The notes beneath the pieces were generated by a model. That model worked only from the letters and a program-made list of their open reading frames with translations, made no database searches and was not told the DNA's origin. A stretch of DNA of 64,000 nucleotides, from the NCBI GenBank assembly GCA_031082125.1, contig JAVHLM010000013.1, positions 62,001 to 126,000 on the forward strand. The letters run 5' to 3'. The stretch is from Candidatus Eremiobacterota bacterium (GTDB taxonomy: Bacteria; Vulcanimicrobiota; CADAWZ01; Ess09-12). The translations under genes and the position numbers were made by a program. Shown one piece after another: positions 16,718 through 31,706 of this stretch. The first letter of the stretch is position 1; each line of letters starts with the position of its first letter.

Positions 16718-17422
16718 TCAATTGCGGAGCGCTCCCTGCTGTCTTGAAGGAGCATCGATTTCTTCGATCCTGCCGCCAGCGAGCCTCATATGCCGAGTCG
16801 CTTCTCCGGCAATATCGTGATTATGAGTCACCATTACTATAGTGACAGAGCCCTCGACAGTAAGCTTCTTGAGATAATCCATCAACTCCCTGGTCATGTC
16901 AGGATCGAGATTTCCTGTGGGCTCGTCAGCAAGAATGATCTGGGGATCATTGGCAAGCGCGCGTGCCAGGGCGACTCTCTGCTGCTGTCCCACGCTCAGC
17001 TTCGGGGGCCTGTGATTCATTCTGGATGCAAGGCCGAACCTATCCAGCAGCTCCTTCGCTTTCTTTTCCTGCGCATCTTTGGATTTATCGGCCATATAAA
17101 GCGGGATCTGGACATTTTCAAGCGCAGTGAGATATGGAATAAGATTAAAGGTTTGAAAAAGGAAACCTATGGTGTTTCTGCGGCATTCGGCTTTTTGGAT
17201 GGCACTCAAGTCATAAACAGATTTTTCTTTAATATAGATTTTCCCCGAATCAGGCTGGTTGAGGCCTCCCATCGTGAGGAGCAGGGTTGTTTTGCCGCCG
17301 CCGCTTGGCCCGGTGATGGAAACAAACTCTCCCTGTGCTATCTGCACAGAGACATTAATCAGGGCATTTACTGTGACTTTATCTACTGTGTAGGATTTGC
17401 TTACATTTTCCAGGATTATCAT
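16718..17422 (-). CDS. ABC transporter ATP-binding protein, LolD/MacB type
   Basis: Energises the adjacent FtsX-type permease. The nucleotide-binding domain is complete: Walker [12 protein letters not shown] (about residue 39), Q-loop [19 protein letters not shown], signature [15 protein letters not shown], Walker [13 protein letters not shown] and switch His in VMVTHNHD. The 234-residue length and sequence style match LolD/MacB/FtsE-type ATPases, which power mechanotransmission rather than classical import. It begins two bases after the permease stop codon. It is the last gene of the ArsR-headed unit beginning near 20630. Confidence 0.92.
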
Positions 17423-17424
17423 CG

Positions 17425-18630
17425 TTACACCTCTTGAAATATTTCGACGGGATCAACGTGTGCGGCACGGCTTGCCGGGATGAGGCTGGAGAGCACGGAA
17501 ACAACCACCGCTATTGAAACGGCCCATAACAGCAGGTTCCCGATAGGGTTTACACTGACTCCTGTTATTTTTGGACCCAGAAATAACGCCATAATTGTTC
17601 CGGCAGCGTATCCCAGAATCCCTCCCGTGAAGCCCAGAATGAGCGCCTTGAGCAGGAAAATATGAAGGATGCGGTTCGGTACAGAGCCGACGGCTATCAT
17701 GATGGCTATTTCTCTCCGCCTCTCATGCACGTTGGAGAACATATAGTTGGCGATGCCGATGCCGCCGACAAGCACGATGACGATGAAGAAGATCATCGAG
17801 AATTTATCGAGCATTTCATTGGTCTTCTGCTGAGTTTTCACAAGCTGCGTTATTGTCACCACCTTGGCGTCAGGTAGAAGCTTGTTGAGGCTGTCAAGCA
17901 TTCCCTTCTTAATCTCGCTGCAGCAGCCGACAAGCTCTATCATATTGATCACTTTTCCCGTATTGAACATATTCTGGACTACATGGAGACTTGCAATTAT
18001 GCGGGTATCATCGATTGTTCCCGTCTCGGGGTAGACCTCCTTTACCCTGAACTTTCTGCCTTTAATCTCAATGGCCGAATCCTTTTGAAGGCCGAAGAGC
18101 CTTGCCGCTTCGCTTCCTACTATCACCTCGTCAGCACCGAGGGCTTCGATGATTTTCCGGCGCATCTGGTTTTCTTTCGTCAAAGGAGGGGGTTTTGGCC
18201 CGCAGGCCGCTGGTTCTGTAAAAATATTCGCAGAAGCCTTCCACGAGGGGGGCATTTTCAGCTCATTCTTGGGAAGAACTCCCGTGAAATTTACTGTTTT
18301 TCCTTGAAGAGCAATGGGTTTTGTCAGTTTCGGGGAGAGGTTGAGGATTCCCTGGATTGATGATAAGGTGATGGTGTCCACATAGCTTTCCGGAATAACG
18401 TCCTCCTCAAAATCCGAGCGGTAGTAATCATTCACCGTCGCGGATTTGGGAATGATAAGGGCATTCGCCCCGAGGTTATCAAGCTCCTCAGCTACTGCCA
18501 CCTGGGAAGAATGGGACATGGTCCTGGTTGCGACAATAACCGTTATTCCAATGAGAATGGCAAGAAAACTGGTGATAAGCTGATTCTTCTTTTCAAACAG
18601 CTCTCTCATAACTATTTTGAGTGTGGTCAT
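17425..18630 (-). CDS. FtsX/MacB-type ABC transporter permease
   Basis: The topology fits a type VII ABC (MacB/LolC) permease: one N-terminal membrane helix (NQLITSFLAILIGITVIVA), a large extracytoplasmic domain (about residues 40-270), and three C-terminal helices (MIFFIVIVLVGGIGIANYMF; LLKALILGFTGGILGYAAG; LLLWAVSIAVVVSVLSSLI), ending in the conserved PASRAAHVDPVEIF. The extracytoplasmic domain contains cysteines (EPAACGPK, LVGCCSEI) that could contact thiols or metalloids. Position between a thioredoxin-fold lipoprotein and its ATPase suggests a tripartite envelope system. The cargo is unknown. Confidence 0.88.
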   Translation of the reverse strand: MTTLKIVMRELFEKKNQLITSFLAILIGITVIVATRTMSHSSQVAVAEELDNLGANALIIPKSATVNDYYRSDFEEDVIPESYVDTITLSSIQGILNLSPKLTKPIALQGKTVNFTGVLPKNELKMPPSWKASANIFTEPAACGPKPPPLTKENQMRRKIIEALGADEVIVGSEAARLFGLQKDSAIEIKGRKFRVKEVYPETGTIDDTRIIASLHVVQNMFNTGKVINMIELVGCCSEIKKGMLDSLNKLLPDAKVVTITQLVKTQQKTNEMLDKFSMIFFIVIVLVGGIGIANYMFSNVHERRREIAIMIAVGSVPNRILHIFLLKALILGFTGGILGYAAGTIMALFLGPKITGVSVNPIGNLLLWAVSIAVVVSVLSSLIPASRAAHVDPVEIFQEV

Positions 18631-18690: not shown

Positions 18691-19506
18691 TCAGCCTGAT
18701 GAGCAATTGCTGCAGCTCGAAAGCAGGGCATCAATTTTTGCGCTGTCCACGGTGCCTTTAAGAGTTCCCGCCAATGCGCCCTGGTTCAGAATGGTCACGG
18801 CCGTCTGCGGAGCTTTTCCCGGAGCCATTTTGAACATTGAGAAGAGAGGCATGTCGTTTTTATCTTCGGGATCCACGCGGATCACCACGCTGTTTTCTTT
18901 CTTGCTGGCGTAGCCGTCCACTTCTTTCATGGCTTTCTCAAACTGGGCAGAGTCCTGGCCGGGAAAACAGACAAATATGAGTCTTCTTTCCTGCGCTGAT
19001 TTGAGAAAAGAGAGGACCTTTTCTGAAAGAAATGATTCTTTTATCGCGGAAACCGAAACGTCTTCAACAAAGCCGTTTATTACTGTGCCTTCCGGTGAAA
19101 GAACCAGCAGGACTGGCTTGTTTACCTTGTCTATCTCATATTTCCTCACTACCGGGAGCTCCTTTTCATCGTTTACATTGACAGTGACAAAATGAGCCGT
19201 CTCTTTCCCATATTTATTCTCTGCTTCCTTGTACACTGATTTCATTTTGCCGGTGGGCTCGTCATCCTTTTCAAAAAACAATACCACCAGAAATTTCTTC
19301 TTTCCCGAAGAGCTTTTAAGCATTTCAGCAACTGAAGAAGTGTCGTCCAGCGGTGCCTTCAGAATATTTTCCTCAACTGTATTCGTTGGATTGCCTGTTA
19401 CAGAGACATTTTCATCTGCCTTTCTACCGCACGAGGTGAGGGCAATCAGTAGCCCGAAAGCAATTACTGCGAGGTAATATGCCCTTTTGAAAGTTGTATG
19501 TTTCAT
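18691..19506 (-). CDS. Thioredoxin-fold lipoprotein
   Basis: The chosen ATG at 19506 follows GAAGGGAAAATACCT. The N-terminus is a lipoprotein signal ending ALTSC-GRK, so the mature protein should be lipid-anchored outside the cytoplasm. Two thioredoxin-like halves are visible: FLVVLFFEKDDEPTGKM...VNKPVLLVLSPEG and RRLIFVCFPGQDSAQFEKAM...APQTAVTIL. The usual CxxC is missing from both, but the C-terminus ends in CSNC, which could be a relocated thiol pair. It lies between the selenocysteine-peptide candidate and the ABC permease in the same operon, suggesting delivery or reduction of substrate for that transporter. Confidence 0.72.
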   Translation of the reverse strand: MKHTTFKRAYYLAVIAFGLLIALTSCGRKADENVSVTGNPTNTVEENILKAPLDDTSSVAEMLKSSSGKKKFLVVLFFEKDDEPTGKMKSVYKEAENKYGKETAHFVTVNVNDEKELPVVRKYEIDKVNKPVLLVLSPEGTVINGFVEDVSVSAIKESFLSEKVLSFLKSAQERRLIFVCFPGQDSAQFEKAMKEVDGYASKKENSVVIRVDPEDKNDMPLFSMFKMAPGKAPQTAVTILNQGALAGTLKGTVDSAKIDALLSSCSNCSSG

Positions 19507-19590: not shown

Positions 19591-19719
19591 TCAGGCCTGC
19601 TTTTTTTCGCTGCTTTTGGAATCGGCTGAATCCTCAGGTGGTGGGGGATTCTTCTTGCTTTCTGCGGCCGAACTGCCGCATGCCCCACCTGGCGCTCAGC
19701 AACAGCTGGTCTTTTTCAT
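19591..19719 (-). CDS. Candidate 42-residue selenopeptide (Cys-Cys-Sec)
   Basis: Reading UGA at 19698-19696 as Sec gives MKKTSCCU-APGGACGSS followed by a charged Pro/Ser/Lys tail, ending at TGA 19593-19591. ATG 19719 follows GAGAATGGAG; ATG 19725 is an alternative. The Cys-Cys-Sec plus a further Cys (C14) in an ArsR-headed operon suggests metalloid binding or redox chemistry. A hairpin (19663-19680) has its loop 21 nt after the UGA, matching the geometry at three other UGA genes in this island. If UGA is a stop, only a seven-residue peptide would be made. I know no named family for it, so this is the least certain of the four. Confidence 0.55.
19663..19680 (-). promoter_or_regulatory. Candidate SECIS hairpin of the 42-residue selenopeptide
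   Basis: On the minus strand TGCGGC-AGTTCG-GCCGCA forms a perfect 6-bp stem with a 6-nt loop carrying G at the second position. The loop starts 21 nt after the UGA, inside the 16-37 nt range known for bacterial SECIS elements. Confidence 0.6.
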
Positions 19720-19780
19720 CTCCATTCTCAGTGATTTTTCAAAGCATTTTGTCAGCTTTTAATGCACGCCACCATGCTGT

Positions 19781-20176
19781 TTAGCTGGTGTGAGCTTTTC
19801 CCTGAACCGGTATCCAACGAATCAGGCCCACCATGTATTCAGGGTAAGCCCTCAGAAAGACAATTGCGAGGACAAACATCAGTATGGGACCGATGATCCA
19901 GTTCTGCACCAGGGAGAGTGACAGGACCTTCACGTCGCGGAATACTTTCCCCATCTCTTCATACTTCACCTTGGCCAGGGGCGGATACATCATCAGGATG
20001 AGGCCGATGGCGATGGAAGTGGTTCCCACCTGGAATGCCGAGAGCACCTTGTTTACCCCGGGGAAAAGAAACCCGGCGCCTACGCCCACGAACATTGCCA
20101 GAAAAATCCAGAGGGTGAGATAGGTGTAGAGGAACGAGAGTTTTTTCTTTACTTTGCCGGCATCAGCTGCTGTCAT
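19781..20176 (-). pseudogene. Truncated duplicate of the acr3 arsenite exporter
   Basis: The 131-residue frame matches the first ~120 residues of the intact ACR3 at 30609-31706 almost residue for residue (for example [20 protein letters not shown] in both). The DNA is also nearly identical over about 320 bases. It lacks two codons (TTSIAIG against TTSIPIAIG) and ends in an unrelated tail, [15 protein letters not shown]. Over half of the membrane helices, including the thiolate-bearing ones, are gone, so arsenite export is not expected. Its own N-terminus ([12 protein letters not shown]) differs from the intact copy, so this is a decayed paralog rather than a simple copy. Confidence 0.85.
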
Positions 20177-20222: not shown

Positions 20223-20630
20223 TTATTTATGCAATTGCCCGGTGTGGTAGCCTCTTTTGCTGTTTTGCATCCTGCACAATGGATCCAGCCCCTGTGCAAT
20301 GATGCACTTCAGTCTATTGTCGTCGTTTTCAAGCTCTTTCGACTGCGCCAGTGACTCTTTAAGCCATTTAAGCAGGGATGGCGGGAAGCAGTCCGAAAGC
20401 CTGTAATATACCCAGCGGCTGTCCTTTCTGCTCTTTACCAGGTGAGCATTCTGGAGGACACTCATGTGGCGGGATACGGTGGCCGGGGCGAGTTTAAGCA
20501 TCTCTGTAATCTGGCAGACACAGAGCTCATCTCTCTTTGTCAGGGCAATAAGCACCCTTAACCGGTTCCCATCTGCCAGGGCTTTGGTGACGGCCAGTGT
20601 TTTCTCCATGGATTCCGCCTTTGTTTGCAT
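20223..20630 (-). CDS. arsR: ArsR-family metalloregulator
   Basis: A winged-helix repressor that leaves DNA when arsenite or antimonite binds. The DNA-binding region contains ELCVCQITEMLKLAPATVSRHMSVLQNAHLV, with the classical C-x-C of the ELCVCDL metalloid site directly ahead of the recognition helix. Further Cys residues near the C-terminus (CIIAQ, PLCRM) may add ligands. The start is 20630 or the internal ATG at 20609. A palindromic TAATTA pair lies eight bases upstream and is a candidate operator. It heads the unit acr3 fragment, selenopeptide, thioredoxin-fold lipoprotein and FtsX/LolD transporter. Confidence 0.9.
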   Translation of the reverse strand: MQTKAESMEKTLAVTKALADGNRLRVLIALTKRDELCVCQITEMLKLAPATVSRHMSVLQNAHLVKSRKDSRWVYYRLSDCFPPSLLKWLKESLAQSKELENDDNRLKCIIAQGLDPLCRMQNSKRGYHTGQLHK

Positions 20631-20637
20631 ATTTTGC

Positions 20638-20655
20638 TAATTAACGAAATAATTA
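20638..20655. promoter_or_regulatory. Candidate ArsR operator
   Basis: TAATTA-N6-TAATTA, an inverted repeat in an A+T-rich patch directly upstream of arsR. Position and symmetry suit autoregulation by a dimeric ArsR, but its sequence differs from the ATATC-N10-GATAT pair near the other arsR. Confidence 0.4.
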
Positions 20656-20712
20656 TATGATAAAGTGCAGAAGATGTCAAGGAAAATGGGTGGATAACAA
20701 AGCGCATTTCCC

Positions 20713-23205: not shown

Positions 23206-23590
23206 TCAGCGAGTGGCCCTCTTGCAGCTGCAGAAAAAATTTTTCCGATGGGGAATCCCCTTTAAGGTCCGAGGTGAAGCGGTAGAGCGGGGAATAAATT
23301 CTGGATTGCTGTTGACAAGGGGGCACTCATGGAGTATGGCAGTGGCGGCGGCAAAGGCATCGGCAAGAGAAATCCTGTAATCGGCTTTGAGTTCTCCCGC
23401 TGCGAGCGCTTCTTTTTCTGCCGCAGGAATGAGAGTGACAGGCCAGTTCTTCATGGCGGTGAGAAGAGAATGTGCTTTTGCTGAGCCTTTCTTTCGCTTG
23501 ATGAGGTAGTAAAGCTCGCAGAGGTTCACCCAGCTCACAAGGAGCTCAATCTCACCTCGGCTTGCATCGATGAGGAAGCCTTCGCCTTTT
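23206..23590 (-). pseudogene. VapC-like PIN-domain toxin remnant
   Basis: The frame contains the middle and end of a PIN-domain ribonuclease: SWVNLCELYYLIKRKKGSAKAH, ELKADYRISLADAFAAATAI, ECPLVNSNPEFI. These resemble VapC toxins (the 'NLxExxY' helix, 'SLADAFAAA' and 'PLVTxDPEF' segments). The first 35-40 residues, with the first catalytic Asp, are missing, and the tail after NPEF does not look native. The remnant joins out of frame with the 3' end of the CopZ-like gene, so a deletion or insertion probably fused the two. No VapB antitoxin is present. Confidence 0.65.
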
Positions 23591-23777
23591 CCGCAACACG
23601 GCGGACATCGGCATGACATCACGTGCCTCTGGGATTCCTGGTGCTGCACTCACAGGTGCCGGCCTGCCTTTCAGCCATTATTCTTTCCATAATCAGGGAG
23701 CGTCCGGCATTTTCGATGACATCGCGGATGATGTCTTCTTCTCGGTATTCAAGGCAGTAACAGACTAATTCATTCAT
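23535..23777 (-). CDS. Selenocysteine-containing CopZ-like [2Fe-2S]/zinc protein
   Basis: Reading UGA at 23621-23619 as Sec gives 80 residues: MNELVCYCLEYREEDIIRD, then GRSLIMERIMAERQAGTCECS, then TRNPRGT-U-CHADVRRVAEKAK. This matches the Fe-S/zinc domain of CopZ-type proteins (CYCF...C-x-C...NPKGR-C-C-L-x-DV), with Sec replacing the first Cys of the conserved pair. Ligands would be C6, C8, C42, C44, U53 and C54. A hairpin follows the UGA. The last ~15 residues come from the fusion with a VapC remnant. It starts 13 bases after arsC and is probably co-transcribed. If UGA stops translation, the conserved ligand pair would be lost. Confidence 0.82.
23590..23605 (-). promoter_or_regulatory. Candidate SECIS hairpin of the CopZ-like gene
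   Basis: TCCGC-CGTGTT-GCGGA on the minus strand: a 5-bp stem and a 6-nt loop with G at the second position, starting 18 nt after the UGA. Confidence 0.6.
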
Positions 23778-24221: not shown

Positions 24222-25055
24222 TCATTTTTCCGGCTTGTATGCACGGACCTTGATGCTCACTATGGAGTCGGCAGCCTTCCTTATCTCATCCATGGGGATC
24301 TTTGCATCTTTAATAATTGCCTGCACCGTGGGATCACTGGCCATGTAGTCGAGGGGGAATACGCACTCTTCAAGCACCGCCACCTCGATGAATCCAGCAT
24401 CTCTGATGGCGGCGAGATAAGCCTCCTTCAATGAGGCTCCCGCAATGCAGCCGATATAGGCGTCCACTGATTTCCTTATGCTTTCGGGGAGCTCTCTCAG
24501 GAGCACGATATCAGAGATCATGAGTCTCCCGCCCGGTCTGAGAACCCTGTGAGTCTCGCGGAACACCTGTGTCTTGTCTGGCGAGAGGTTTACCACGCAG
24601 TTTGAGATCACCACATCAACGAAGTTATCGGCAACGGGGAGGTGCTCGATCTCTCCCAGCCTGAACTCTATGTTACCCAGCCCCGATGCCTTGGAATTTT
24701 TCCGGGCATTTTCCACCATCTCGGGCGTCATATCGACGCCGATGACTTTTCCTGTGCCGCCGACCTTCTTCGCCGCGAGAAAACAGTCAATCCCCGCTCC
24801 GGCACCGAGGTCAAGTACATATTCTCCTTCCGCGAGAGAGGCGAGGGCAACGGGATTTCCGCATCCGAGCCCGAGGTTGGCCCCCTCCGGAAGGGAGGAC
24901 AGCTCTTCACTGCTGTACCCTATATTTTTGCTCAGGTCTTCCGCCAGTGTGCTGGTCCCGCAGCACGATGACTTCGGCCCTCAGCAGCTTCCAGAATCCT
25001 GCGCGATGGCCCCGTATCCTTCCCGTACTGCTTTTCTGATGTCTTCCTGGTCCAT
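24222..25055 (-). CDS. arsM: Selenocysteine-containing arsenite methyltransferase
   Basis: Transfers methyl groups from S-adenosylmethionine to arsenite. ATG 25055 follows AGGAGGACATC. In-frame UGA at 24983-24981 (codon 25) falls in QDSGSC-U-GPKSSCCG, the Cys-rich N-terminal segment of ArsM; the island's other ArsM has GGSCGCGCSC there. The core is intact: GLGCGNP, the SAM site VLDLGAGAGIDCFLAA, VISNCVVNLSPDK, YIGCIAGAS, so all three arsenite-binding Cys are present. A SECIS-like hairpin has its loop 20 nt after the UGA. A conventional call would start at an internal ATG (24731) and lose the SAM-binding motif, so read-through explains the gene better than decay. Confidence 0.85.
24949..24966 (-). 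promoter_or_regulatory. Candidate SECIS hairpin of the Sec-ArsM gene
   Basis: GTGCTG-CGGGAC-CAGCAC on the minus strand: a perfect 6-bp stem and a 6-nt loop with G at position 2, starting 20 nt after the UGA. Confidence 0.6.
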
Positions 25056-25127: not shown

Positions 25128-25472
25128 TTACCTCTTCTCCCGGTCTGCCGGCTTACCCTTATGGAGGCCGGTGGAGTCTTCAGCAAGCCGGAGGGTGAAC
25201 CTGCCGTAGCCTTCAATGCGCATGAGAAGCTCTCCCTTTGCCATGTCATAGGTATTCCATATCTCTTTGTGGATATAAAATTTAAGCTCCCCTGAAGAGT
25301 ACTCTTCAAAGTCGCCAGGATTTTCCGGTTTTCCCATCAGACCTGATGGCGCCTTGAATATCTGTCATCACCCGAGGGTCACATAGCGCTCCGTGATGTT
25401 CATTATCCCGCCATGCTCCTGCATATACTCCTCAAGCCAGAGCGAGTCAAAGGTGAGCGATTTGTCTGGCAT
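25128..25472 (-). CDS. CC/Se-motif family protein with two adjacent selenocysteines
   Basis: ATG 25472 follows a strong AAAGGAGG. Translation through two consecutive UGA codons (25370-25365) gives 114 residues: WLEEYMQEHGGIMNITERYVTLG-U-U-QIFKAPSG, then GKPENPGDFEEY, KFYIHKEIW, and ELLMRIEGYGRFTLRLAE. From memory, this matches the small HesB-like family that NCBI calls 'CC/Se motif family (seleno)protein', where the site is Cys-Cys or contains Sec. Residues before and after the UGAs form one homologous domain in one frame, and the second half alone has no good ribosome site. The hairpin beyond the UGAs contains CAGGTCTG, the apical sequence of the E. coli fdhF SECIS. The function of the family is unknown; a diselenide redox site is an inference. 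Confidence 0.82.
25334..25349 (-). promoter_or_regulatory. Candidate SECIS hairpin of the CC/Se-motif gene
   Basis: CCATCA-GGTC-TGATGG on the minus strand: a perfect 6-bp stem and a GGUC loop starting 21 nt after the second UGA. The apex CAGGUCUG equals that of the E. coli fdhF SECIS bound by SelB (from memory). Confidence 0.7.
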
Positions 25473-27887: not shown

Positions 27888-28772
27888 CTAGTGTCGGCCT
27901 GCAATTTCCCTCTGCGCTTTATCTATCATATTCTTGAAATAGGCTTCGCTTTCCAGCAGGAGCTCCCGGTCCTCTTCAAGCTGAGTGAGGCGCAGCTCAG
28001 CGATCCATCCCCGCCGGTAAGGGTCTTCGTTAAGAAGCTCAGGATGCTCCTTCAATGCCTCATTGATGCGCACGACAACTCCTGAGACCGGCGAGATGAC
28101 CTGCAGCACGGACTTGCTCGATTCAAAGTCGCCGGCCTCGTCGAACTGGGAGATTTCCTTCCCGGGATCGGGATGGCCCACGTACATGATATCGCCGGCC
28201 CTGGTCTGGAGATAATCACTGATGCCTATGAGGGCTGTCGAGCCTCTCACGAAAGCCCAGCAATCGTTCTCATTGAAGAGGTATCCCTCTTTCGGGACTT
28301 TCAGCACGAACTTATCGACCATGGCCTCTAAGAAGTCGAGCTCCCGGCGGTTCCAGTCTTCAATACCGGCCTCGGTAGCTTTTTCGGATTTTTTCTCAGA
28401 GCAGTGACTCATAATGAGCCGTGATATTTCACCTGCCACCTTCAGGCCCCCGGGGCCGGGCTCAAGAGAAGCCTCGGGCCTGCTGCCGGTGCTTTTCACC
28501 ACATCAGGGACATAGAGCTTCAATGCAATGCCTGCCTGAAGAGCCGCCGCCGTTTTTGTCGCGCACCTTGTGCCGCAGCCGTCTATCACGATCAGCTTTT
28601 TCTTTTCGGCACTCTCCTTGTACCGGCCGGGGTCCTGCGAGCATACCATGGGGCAGAGAAGCTCCAGCTCCGGCAGGGCAGTACAGGCATTGAGTGCCGC
28701 CGCTCTTGTGATCTGCCCGAGAGACTTGTCCAAGCCGTTGCAGGGGAGAAGGGCAAACTCGGATCCGCTCAT
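27888..28772 (-). CDS. DGC-domain protein fused to a GcvH-like lipoyl domain
   Basis: Residues 1-130 form a DGC domain (Pfam 'putative zinc-binding'): a leading LLPCNGLDKSLGQITRAAAL and the motif IVIDGCGTRCATKTAA. Residues about 165-260 resemble glycine-cleavage H protein: YLFNENDCWAFVRGSTALIGIS, then GDFESSKSVLQVISPVSGVV with a Lys where lipoate is attached, then EALKEHPELLNEDPYRRGWIAEL. Lipoyl carriers shuttle electrons or acyl-type adducts; fusion to DGC is unusual. It overlaps the ferredoxin gene by four bases. A redox or metalloid-carrier role is inferred; glycine cleavage is unlikely since no GcvP or GcvT is nearby. Confidence 0.82.
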   Translation of the reverse strand: MSGSEFALLPCNGLDKSLGQITRAAALNACTALPELELLCPMVCSQDPGRYKESAEKKKLIVIDGCGTRCATKTAAALQAGIALKLYVPDVVKSTGSRPEASLEPGPGGLKVAGEISRLIMSHCSEKKSEKATEAGIEDWNRRELDFLEAMVDKFVLKVPKEGYLFNENDCWAFVRGSTALIGISDYLQTRAGDIMYVGHPDPGKEISQFDEAGDFESSKSVLQVISPVSGVVVRINEALKEHPELLNEDPYRRGWIAELRLTQLEEDRELLLESEAYFKNMIDKAQREIAGRH

Positions 28773-29056
28773 TTCGCTTCCTCCTCCTTGCGTATTTGTT
28801 TAATGAGTGCCGTTGTCTCCTGCTTATTGGGGAATGAGAGGGCGTCGGGCTCGCAGGTCTTTGCGCAGGCACGGCAGAACACGACGCAGTTCTCTTTGTT
28901 TTTCACCACGAGCTTCCTCTCACCCTCGTTGCGCTCAAAGACCTTGTGGGGGCAGAACTTATCGCACTCCATGCAGAAATTGCATTTTGTATAGTCTATA
29001 ACGGGATACCAGGGAATCCTCTCCCTCGGCACTCCCATGAAGGTGCTTTCAGACAT
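28769..29056 (-). CDS. Ferredoxin with two [4Fe-4S] sites
   Basis: About 95 residues. The Cys patterns YTKCNFCMECDKFCPHKVF and CVVFCRACAKTCEPDAL are 4Fe-4S-type motifs, the second slightly atypical. The chosen start MSESTFMGVPRE at 29056 overlaps the stop of the HdrA-like gene by eight bases; a longer frame to 29095 lies inside that gene. It probably passes electrons between the HdrA-like and DGC-lipoyl proteins encoded on either side. Confidence 0.88.
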   Translation of the reverse strand: MSESTFMGVPRERIPWYPVIDYTKCNFCMECDKFCPHKVFERNEGERKLVVKNKENCVVFCRACAKTCEPDALSFPNKQETTALIKQIRKEEEAK

Positions 29057-29441
29057 CTTTCGCCTCCATATCGGCAAGCTTTTTCTCCACCGCATTAAAG
29101 GCCTGGTCGGTAGTCATATCCCTCACGTCGAGAGGCGCCAGGTGTTTTTTCACATCGAGCCCCATTTCGCTGAAGGCATCCCTGAAAAGCTTGTACTGCA
29201 TCGAGGGAGCGCATCCGCCCACCACATAGGTCCTGCCGGGCTGGATAAAGTCTTTCCAGAAACGGTCGCCGTCCTCTTCGCAGAGCTGGGGATGGATGAA
29301 GGCATACTCGACGGGAAGCTCCACCCGGACCCTGTTAATAAAATCCCACATATCCATTTTAGAGAAACCGGGGCATTTACCGGTGCAGACACACATGATG
29401 AATCCTGGTTTTTTGTCTTCCATAACATCCGGGTCTTTCAT
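29049..29441 (-). CDS. HdrA-like iron-sulfur protein (short)
   Basis: A 130-residue protein similar to the N-terminal domain of heterodisulfide reductase subunit A: FIMCVCTGKCPGFSKMD (Cys cluster ligands), HPQLCEEDGDRFWKDF, and VVGGCAPSMQYKLFRDAF, which matches the HdrA motif 'VVAACSPRTHEP'. It lacks the FAD domain of HdrA, so it is a stand-alone cluster-binding module. It shares one base with the DGC gene upstream and overlaps the ferredoxin gene downstream, so tight co-translation is likely. Function in arsenic handling is inferred only from context. Confidence 0.78.
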   Translation of the reverse strand: MKDPDVMEDKKPGFIMCVCTGKCPGFSKMDMWDFINRVRVELPVEYAFIHPQLCEEDGDRFWKDFIQPGRTYVVGGCAPSMQYKLFRDAFSEMGLDVKKHLAPLDVRDMTTDQAFNAVEKKLADMEAKDV

Positions 29442-30136
29442 TATTTTTTCCGTCCTTTCATATATTCCCGCAGGAGCGCCTCTCCAAGGGAAGCACTGCT
29501 TATTGCTTCAGGAATGGCGTTATAGATCCCTGCCTGTCGCGCGAGCTCCTGTCCCCTCTCTCCGTCAGAGAGTTCTCCATTTTTTGACACCAGCGAGAAT
29601 ATGCCGTCGAGAGCCACAAGCTCGAGAGTCTTTCCCTGAACCTTCACTGAAACGGTGCGGGGGCCTGAGGAACTGCAGGAGCATTCGGGGAGGGGAGCAC
29701 CGCCTGCTGTTCCTGCGCGGCCTTCCTGCGCGGCCTTTGCCAGCACGAGATCCACTTTGCGGGCTATCTCCAGGGCCACCTTTTCGGCAAGCTCCCAGTC
29801 CTTTTCCGTGAAATCCCTTCTCGAAGCAGGAGCTTTTTCTCCAAGTTTTTCAAGAAGCTCATCGATAACCACCACGTCATCGACCTTGCCGCTGTATTTT
29901 TCGGTGCCTTGCTGGGCGCATCGCTTACCGCAGCCATCGACGGCGATGGTGGGATAGCGCTCGACAAAGGCGCGCTCTCCCCCGTCGCCGGCAAGGAAGA
30001 GAGGCAGGCAGATGGTGACAGTCTGCAGTGGCCTGAGCTTTTCCAGCACGATGCGGACAGCGGCCCGGGAGAGCGTTCCCTCGGCGATCTCTTCACCGCT
30101 GCAGGAGATAAGCCCTACTTTCACGTCATTTCCCAT
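29441..30136 (-). CDS. DGC-domain putative zinc-binding protein
   Basis: The 231-residue protein carries a DGC domain: VGLISCSGEEIAEGTLSRAAV at the start and TIAVDGCGKRCAQQGTEKYS. Residues about 110-150 are helical, then a Cys patch PECSCSSSGP precedes a short beta-rich tail (TVSVKVQGKTLELVALDGIF). The conserved Cys residues could bind zinc or a metalloid. It is one of three DGC proteins in a row, with 11-base overlap to the first. No biochemical function is known to me for the family. Confidence 0.8.
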   Translation of the reverse strand: MGNDVKVGLISCSGEEIAEGTLSRAAVRIVLEKLRPLQTVTICLPLFLAGDGGERAFVERYPTIAVDGCGKRCAQQGTEKYSGKVDDVVVIDELLEKLGEKAPASRRDFTEKDWELAEKVALEIARKVDLVLAKAAQEGRAGTAGGAPLPECSCSSSGPRTVSVKVQGKTLELVALDGIFSLVSKNGELSDGERGQELARQAGIYNAIPEAISSASLGEALLREYMKGRKK

Positions 30137-30548
30137 GGTCCTTCCCCTCCTCTCCCAGGATCCGCTCTATCTCTTTTTCAACTTTGTCGGCAAGAGCCTC
30201 CACAAGCTTTTCTCCGCCCTCGCCGATGTGGAGCACCGATTCCGGTTTATATCCCCGGTGCTCCTTGAGGATATCCATCACTCGGAGCTTGCTTTTCACG
30301 AGGCCTCCCGCGAGGGTGATATTCTTGCGGGCACATTCCTTGGGGCACCCGTCAAGGGCGATGCAGGGGTTCTCCCTTACCAGGCGCACCGCCTCATCAT
30401 CGCCCGATACCAGAAGGGCAAGGCAGGTGGTGGTGCTTGTTTCCTTACAGCGTTTTTCGACAATATCATAGGTCGCCTGGCGGCCTACGGTGCCCAGGGG
30501 CTTGCCGATGCCGCTGCAGGGGATGACCACTACTCTGGGCATATTCAT
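30126..30548 (-). CDS. DGC-domain putative zinc-binding protein (short)
   Basis: A 140-residue, single-domain member of the DGC family: VVVIPCSGIGKPLGTVGRQATY and CIALDGCPKECARKNITLAGG. The C-terminus is a helix rich in Glu and Lys. It is the first gene after acr3 and overlaps the second DGC gene. The two starts ATG 30548 and 30542 are both possible. Confidence 0.82.
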   Translation of the reverse strand: MNMPRVVVIPCSGIGKPLGTVGRQATYDIVEKRCKETSTTTCLALLVSGDDEAVRLVRENPCIALDGCPKECARKNITLAGGLVKSKLRVMDILKEHRGYKPESVLHIGEGGEKLVEALADKVEKEIERILGEEGKDHGK

Positions 30549-30608: not shown

Positions 30609-31706
30609 CTATGATGAGCAGCAGGGCGTGACGGTCATGTCGTCATCTTCTCCGGCGAACCACTTCTTCCTGAACCAGAAGGCCACGTTCACCAGCGAAA
30701 TAAGTACGGGCACTTCCACGAGGGGGCCTATGACGGCGGCGAAGGCCTGACCTGAGTTGATGCCGAAGACTGCAATGGCCACGGCGATGGCAAGCTCGAA
30801 ATTATTGCTTGCCGCCGTGAACGAGAGTGTCGCAGTCCTGGTATAGCCGGCTTTGAGCTTGTATCCCATAAAGAAAGAGATAAAGAACATTATTACAAAG
30901 TAAATGCAGAGGGGCACCGCTATTCTCAGCACGTCAAGGGGGAGCTGCACGATATAGTTTCCCTTGAGAGAGAACATCACGACTATGGTGAAGAGCAGTG
31001 CTATCAGGGTGATGGGGCTTATCTTCGGGATGAACTCCTTCTCGTACCATTCCTTGCCCTTTGCCTTGATGAGGCTGAAGCGGGTAATCACCCCCGCGAT
31101 GAAGGGGATTCCAAGGTAGATGAAGACAGACTGGGCGATCTGACCGATAGAGATGTTGACGACAGCGCCTTTCAGGCCCACAAGCGGGGGGAGTATGGTG
31201 ATGAAAAACCATGCATAGACCGAGAAGAAGAGAAGCTGGAACACTGAGTTGAAGGCTACGAGCCCGGCGCAGTACTCGGTGTTGCCTTCGGCAAGCTCGT
31301 TCCACACGATGACCATGGCGATGCAGCGGGCAAGGCCGATAAGAATGAGTCCTACCATATACTCGGGATAGGGGCGGAGAAAAACAATGGCCAGGACGAA
31401 CATCAGTATGGGACCGATGATCCAGTTCTGCACCAGGGAGAGTGACAGGACCTTCACGTCGCGGAATACTTTCCCCATCTCTTCATACTTTACCTTGGCC
31501 AGGGGCGGGTACATCATCAGGATGAGGCCGATGGCGATGGGTATGGAAGTGGTGCCCACCTGGAATGCCGTGAGCACCTTGTTCACTCCGGGGAAGAGGT
31601 ACCCTGCACCTACGCCGATGAACATGGCAAGAAATATCCAGAGAGTGAGATAGGTGTCCAGGAATGAAAGCTTCTTCTTCGCAGGACTGGTGCAGCATTG
31701 TGCCAT
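30609..31706 (-). CDS. acr3: ACR3-family arsenite efflux permease
   Basis: An inner-membrane arsenite exporter of about ten helices, 365 residues, normal for ACR3. Helices include [55 protein letters not shown] and [21 protein letters not shown]. The thiolate of LARCIAMV, conserved and needed in characterised ACR3 proteins, is present. The N-terminus has a Cys pair (MAQCCTSP) and the C-terminus CCSS. AGGAGGCGAATGT precedes ATG 31706. It lies downstream of arsR with an inverted repeat between them. A truncated relative lies at 19781. Confidence 0.95.

Follow-up and report, generated by a model that had tools for sequence, protein, structure and literature searches.

Among the small proteins encoded in arsenic operons, the arsenite chaperone ArsD is folded, carries a vicinal Cys pair, serves ArsA and passes As(III) to the pump. 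Prokaryotic selenoproteins have been tabulated in 119 families, Cys-Sec proteins such as SaoC and MbdU among them, in a review (PMC13188914). SaoC (NF040734), going by Table 1 of that review, is a selenoprotein with a CU motif, encoded next to ABC transporter genes and thought to bind metal, and MbdU (NF045648) is described as a metal-binding double selenoprotein whose CU motif is the presumed metal ligand. The subject of this report is a short frame with an inner UGA in a window of 64,000 nucleotides (the whole stretch of DNA that was analysed) from a Candidatus Eremiobacterota bacterium, which we regard as a candidate for a small, metal-binding selenopeptide that belongs to no family, set in an unusually Sec-rich arsenic island. 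In SaoC the Cys-Cys pair is C-terminal, judging by the family name, whereas the U of the peptide is residue 8 of 42, and MbdU has two Sec where the peptide has one; neither profile is matched by it, that of SaoC at E values up to 10, and nor is the CC/Se motif family NF041239, to which a neighbouring frame (25472-25128) has a weak match. ArsD, unlike the peptide, which is probably disordered, is folded and about three times longer. The N-terminus of ArsM (NF008823) shares the SC(C)UxPxxxC spacing, the island and the hairpin form with the peptide, but there the motif is part of a methyltransferase; that the peptide is a copy of this N-terminus was rejected, the resemblance being non-significant (P 0.05 to 0.08), and an origin as a copy of other DNA in the window was rejected by comparison within the window. 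The neighbouring permease and ATPase match MacB and LolD and so recall MacAB/LolCDE-type exporters, yet the module has a thioredoxin-type lipoprotein in place of the MacA adaptor as well as extra Cys pairs, and its matches fall below equivalog cut-offs. The initial annotation knew of no family for the peptide, and none was matched in NCBIfam, Pfam or PADLOC; in the paper library searched, none was found on a selenoprotein with a Cys-Cys-Sec or CCU motif.

The genes lie on one strand in the order promoter, arsR, acr3 remnant, peptide, lipoprotein, permease and ATPase (Table 1), with gaps from arsR onward of 46, 61, 84, 60 and 2 nt, which is the setting first described for the peptide (arsR and a truncated acr3 upstream; a lipoprotein, an FtsX-type permease and an ATPase downstream). 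The 42-residue frame with an inner UGA, reported initially with its strand unstated, was recovered on the minus strand, where positions 19719-19591, with UGA read as Sec, translate as MKKTSCCUAPGGACGSSAAESKKNPPPPEDSADSKSSEKKQA and end in a UGA stop; an in-frame AUG at 19725, two codons upstream, is an alternative start, and translation of the plus strand of this interval gives no comparable frame. Over 121 aa the acr3 remnant shares 88% identity with an intact Acr3 (30609-31706, minus strand, with CC at both ends), after which the residues of the remnant are unrelated, and the homology to Acr3 stops before the peptide. At the DNA level the two copies are 83% identical over 392 nt, and the one next to the peptide is cut after 119 residues. 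Since this adjoining copy is a decayed duplicate, the proximity of acr3 is a weaker context than it looks. An AlphaFold model of the lipoprotein made without an alignment had a pLDDT of 39.8 and was set aside.

Table 1. Positions of the peptide, its neighbours and the three reference Sec frames in the window.
Feature	Position	Strand	Details
Promoter-like site before arsR	20652..20680	-	12/12 consensus bases, 17-nt spacer
ArsR/SmtB-type regulator (arsR)	20223..20630	-	NF033788, 86.7 bits, cut-off 55
acr3 remnant	19781..20176	-	N-terminal 119 residues, then unrelated end, without Cys
Cys-Cys-Sec peptide frame (candidate)	19591..19719	-	42 residues, Sec8, UGA stop
Inner UGA, proposed Sec codon of peptide	19696..19698	-	Frame translation and hairpin scan
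SECIS-type hairpin of peptide	19663..19680	-	6 bp, loop AGUUCG
Thioredoxin-type lipoprotein	18691..19506	-	271 aa, lipobox Cys26, C-terminal CSNC; Thioredoxin_6 1.6e-7
MacB/FtsX-type permease	17425..18630	-	401 aa, vicinal Cys236-Cys237
ABC ATPase, LolD/MacB type	16718..17422	-	Profile matches
Seleno-ArsM, reference	24222..25055	-	GSCUGPKSSCC, UGA 24983, loop CGGGAC
CopZ-type (2Fe-2S) protein, reference	23535..23777	-	NPRGTUCHADV, UGA 23621, loop CGUGUU
CC/Se-type protein, reference	25128..25472	-	Adjacent UGAs 25370, 25367; VTLGUUQIF; loop AGGUCU

The host has the machinery for Sec and clearly makes selenoproteins: its genome encodes a tRNA-Sec (70 bits, over the cut-off) with a SelB gene adjoining it, and a SelD that is itself read through a UGA (HAAGUASK). 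Two proteins score over the SelB cut-off (C6:170366-172246 and C8:16892-18754), one beside the tRNA-Sec and the other on a different contig. In the window, the arsenic island occupies about 16.7-32.1 kb of the minus strand and comprises arsR, the intact Acr3, two ArsM, a thioredoxin of the MTH895/ArsE type, ArsF, ArsG and ArsC, with the ArsR, ArsM, ArsC and ArsE-, ArsF- and ArsG-type genes all within 11 kb; a second ArsR-like gene was recognised by eye near 31.8-32.1 kb, also on the minus strand. The interval between acr3 and arsM (27888-30548, minus) contains a ferredoxin-like frame and a number of small proteins with Cys; two of these (29441-30136 and 30125-30548) have no NCBIfam match. ArsF has no detectable relationship to the lipoprotein.

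Three other in-frame UGA sites are found in this island 4-6 kb from the peptide, in an ArsM, a CopZ-like protein and a protein of the CC/Se family. The ArsM is firmly a selenoprotein: a full-length match to NF008823 (358.7 bits, cut-off 263) is obtained only if its UGA is read, and a homolog of 58% identity, from another phylum genome, carries Cys at the UGA position (SCCVQKSSCC). A plain six-frame ORF call starts this gene too late, at 24731. The CopZ-type protein (NF047645 at 3.5e-12, below the cut-off) has its Sec in a context of the GxUC kind, which figures among those listed in the review (PMC13188914). The CC/Se-type protein matches NF041239 at 3.4e-6 (27 bits against a cut-off of 40), its two adjacent UGAs possibly encode a Sec-Sec pair, and it has no homolog beyond itself in 148 genomes of the phylum and none in plasmids.

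Behind the inner UGA of the peptide, as claimed from the start, a strict 6-bp hairpin begins after 21 nt, with the stem UGCGGC/GCCGCA and a 6-nt loop, and the 49 nt from the UGA onward fold at -17.2 kcal/mol (z -2.2 against shuffles). This hairpin conforms to the published bSECIS model as worded in the legend to Fig. 2 of PMC13188914 (loop of 3-9 nt, stem of 4-16 bp, distance from the UGA of 16-37 nt, G in the first two loop positions, MFE of -7.5 or lower), but so do 25.8% of 2582 UGAs in the window, for which reason it is informative only in its strict form. Even when the hairpin must have at least 6 bp, a G within the first two loop nucleotides and a suitable distance from the UGA, 32 of 2583 window UGAs have one. 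The strict form, a 6-nt loop NG[G/U] closed by 5 or 6 pairs, is common to the three reference Sec frames and, although set down after the loop of the peptide had been seen, is also given by those three genes alone; the hairpin of SelD, with a 6-bp stem and a 3-nt GGC loop, is unlike it. Seven of the 2583 window UGAs have the strict form, five of them belonging to the three reference genes and the peptide and the other two (19327 minus and 50799 plus) lying in no likely gene; with the full 6 pairs it is confined to two, those of seleno-ArsM and the peptide. Elsewhere, among other loci retrieved, it occurs at 87 of 32,639 UGAs with at least 5 pairs and at 15 with at least 6, both counts being upper bounds because parts of the same genome and island are among these loci. 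A screen took the 833 window UGAs that have a start upstream, among which 12 have Cys directly before them and at least 20 open codons behind; a hairpin of at least 6 bp follows only those of the peptide and seleno-ArsM, the other ten having at most 3 bp, and the number of such candidates expected by chance is 0.006 to 0.03. The stop UGA of the peptide, by comparison, has only 3 Watson-Crick pairs behind it, and read-through of this second UGA into the lipoprotein was rejected, as there is no hairpin and the lipoprotein has its own signal sequence (by eye). The initial assignment of Sec to the inner UGA is thus supported both by the Sec machinery of the host and by the strict hairpin, and we hold it to be quite probable.

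Other observations speak against coding, and bear on the alternative that there is no gene here: the acr3 duplication would have left behind a degenerating spacer, and CC-UGA and a hairpin would coincide there by chance. The initial annotation had the peptide preceded by an overlapping ribosome site: a GGAG is indeed present at the AUG, but it abuts the AUG with no spacer, and 47% of the AUGs in the window show equal or better anti-SD pairing over the region -17 to -4, so that the site is weak, or ordinary at best, whereas strong ones stand before many genes of the island. A codon model trained on 22 window genes gives -2.8 bits to the part of the peptide behind the UGA, a value as low as which is reached by 1.8% of coding windows (mean 9.9, sd 5.6) and as high as which by 40% of wrong frames (mean -7.4, sd 11.1). 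Part of this low score reflects an odd composition; with synonymous codons alone the score is neutral, and codon usage is best called uninformative or slightly adverse to coding. Behind 26% of window UGAs the frame stays open for 34 codons or more, and the window has nine CC-UGA sites in any case. Since the neighbouring acr3 has decayed, the stretch could be decaying too. These observations, together with the lack of homologs described below, speak for a mere spacer; set against them are the rarity of the strict six-pair hairpin and the small chance expectation given above, the three other Sec frames of the island, the end of Acr3 homology ahead of the peptide, and the finding of no second copy of the peptide in the window DNA. 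We rate the absence of a gene as unlikely.

Relatives of the peptide were sought with a query that included the final stop as a 43rd residue. In tblastn searches of 58 phylum genomes, among them that of the host, the peptide found its own locus at 3.5e-20 and a next best match at 0.0057, with no homolog; a second phylum (377 genomes) and a third (398 genomes), whose sets contain no positive control, gave none, nor did 72,556 plasmid records. Eleven of the weak matches, when re-aligned, proved to be driven by the proline run or by low complexity, none of them having Cys-Cys-[Cys/UGA] in register. The DNA pattern CC[C/U]xPGGxCG was found in 5 viral contigs, each with a Cys codon and none of them convincing, and a slightly looser pattern in at least 119 stretches of genome contigs, where 21 of the 80 loci listed had UGA, the best hairpin had 4 bp and no good candidate appeared among these 80; these matches are taken as chance. 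The initial annotation had made it a touchstone that homologs carry Cys or Sec at this codon, and on this point the result goes against it: these limited searches found none in 833 genomes of three phyla and none in plasmids. The neighbours fare similarly. Scans with the permease as a single protein gave no relative, and no close full-length one turned up anywhere searched (none of 377 genomes at 1e-22, with 4 candidates per genome scored among the matches listed); in plasmids the only match was a permease of 27% identity encoded on pPRO1 of Pelobacter propionicus, where DUF2318 and heavy-metal genes adjoin it. The lipoprotein was found in no other of 149 phylum genomes, nor in plasmids or solved structures. 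It is the whole module, and not the peptide alone, that is rare or newly acquired, and missing homologs of the peptide consequently carry less weight than if the operon were widespread.

What such a peptide might do has to be read from its motif and surroundings, from which a role as metalloid or redox carrier is proposed. In the reading we prefer, a small selenopeptide would be transcribed from the arsR promoter within the unit arsR - acr3 remnant - peptide - lipoprotein - permease - ATPase, SelB would read the inner UGA as Sec with the aid of the hairpin behind it, and the Cys6-Cys7-Sec8 patch (with Cys14), on a soluble and probably disordered chain, would bind trivalent arsenic through its thiols and selenol. 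The peptide could then be a cytosolic carrier or buffer of arsenite or methylarsenite that feeds export, with the MacB-type transporter, which has Cys pairs in permease and lipoprotein, perhaps replacing the broken copy of Acr3. Arsenic binding and hand-over are guessed from chemistry and context, and we give this arsenite-carrier explanation as a whole slightly less than an even chance.

The same evidence for Sec, from the hairpin and the Cys-UGA screen, would serve equally well if Sec were inserted but the peptide were a redox or selenium-handling factor and no arsenic carrier, for instance a reductant for ArsC or for the partners of the thioredoxin-type lipoprotein, or a buffer of selenium, and genes of the thioredoxin and arsenate-reductase kinds are nearby. 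Yet the peptide has neither a CxxU nor a UxxC redox motif, and the lipoprotein lies outside the cytosol whereas the peptide has no signal sequence; we consider such a factor rather unlikely. The position of a short frame directly before transporter genes, with a hairpin immediately behind the UGA, also brings to mind a Sec-dependent leader, in which passage of the ribosome over the UGA would report the supply of selenium (or its blockage by arsenite) and tune the transporter genes. This appears improbable, as the 84 nt between the stop of the peptide and the start of the lipoprotein leave no direct coupling, and a 236-nt fold of the region (z -0.6) is no better than shuffles and contains no obvious switch.

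Should the arsenite-carrier explanation hold, its fullest version would make the peptide a dedicated, selenol-based miniature seleno-metallochaperone, serving a MacB-type exporter that succeeded a lost Acr3, in an arsenic island with four Sec-using neighbouring genes, one of them with a Sec-Sec pair; we find this version conceivable but doubtful. The island itself, with four Sec frames and one kind of hairpin within six kilobases, allows three of the frames to be used as internal standards for the fourth. If real, the peptide would be a very small bacterial selenoprotein outside every profile library, in which a Sec that belongs to no folded redox domain would act as ligand for a metalloid. 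The peptide would, in addition, exemplify how annotation loses tiny selenogenes: with a UGA at the eighth codon, no callable frame is left.
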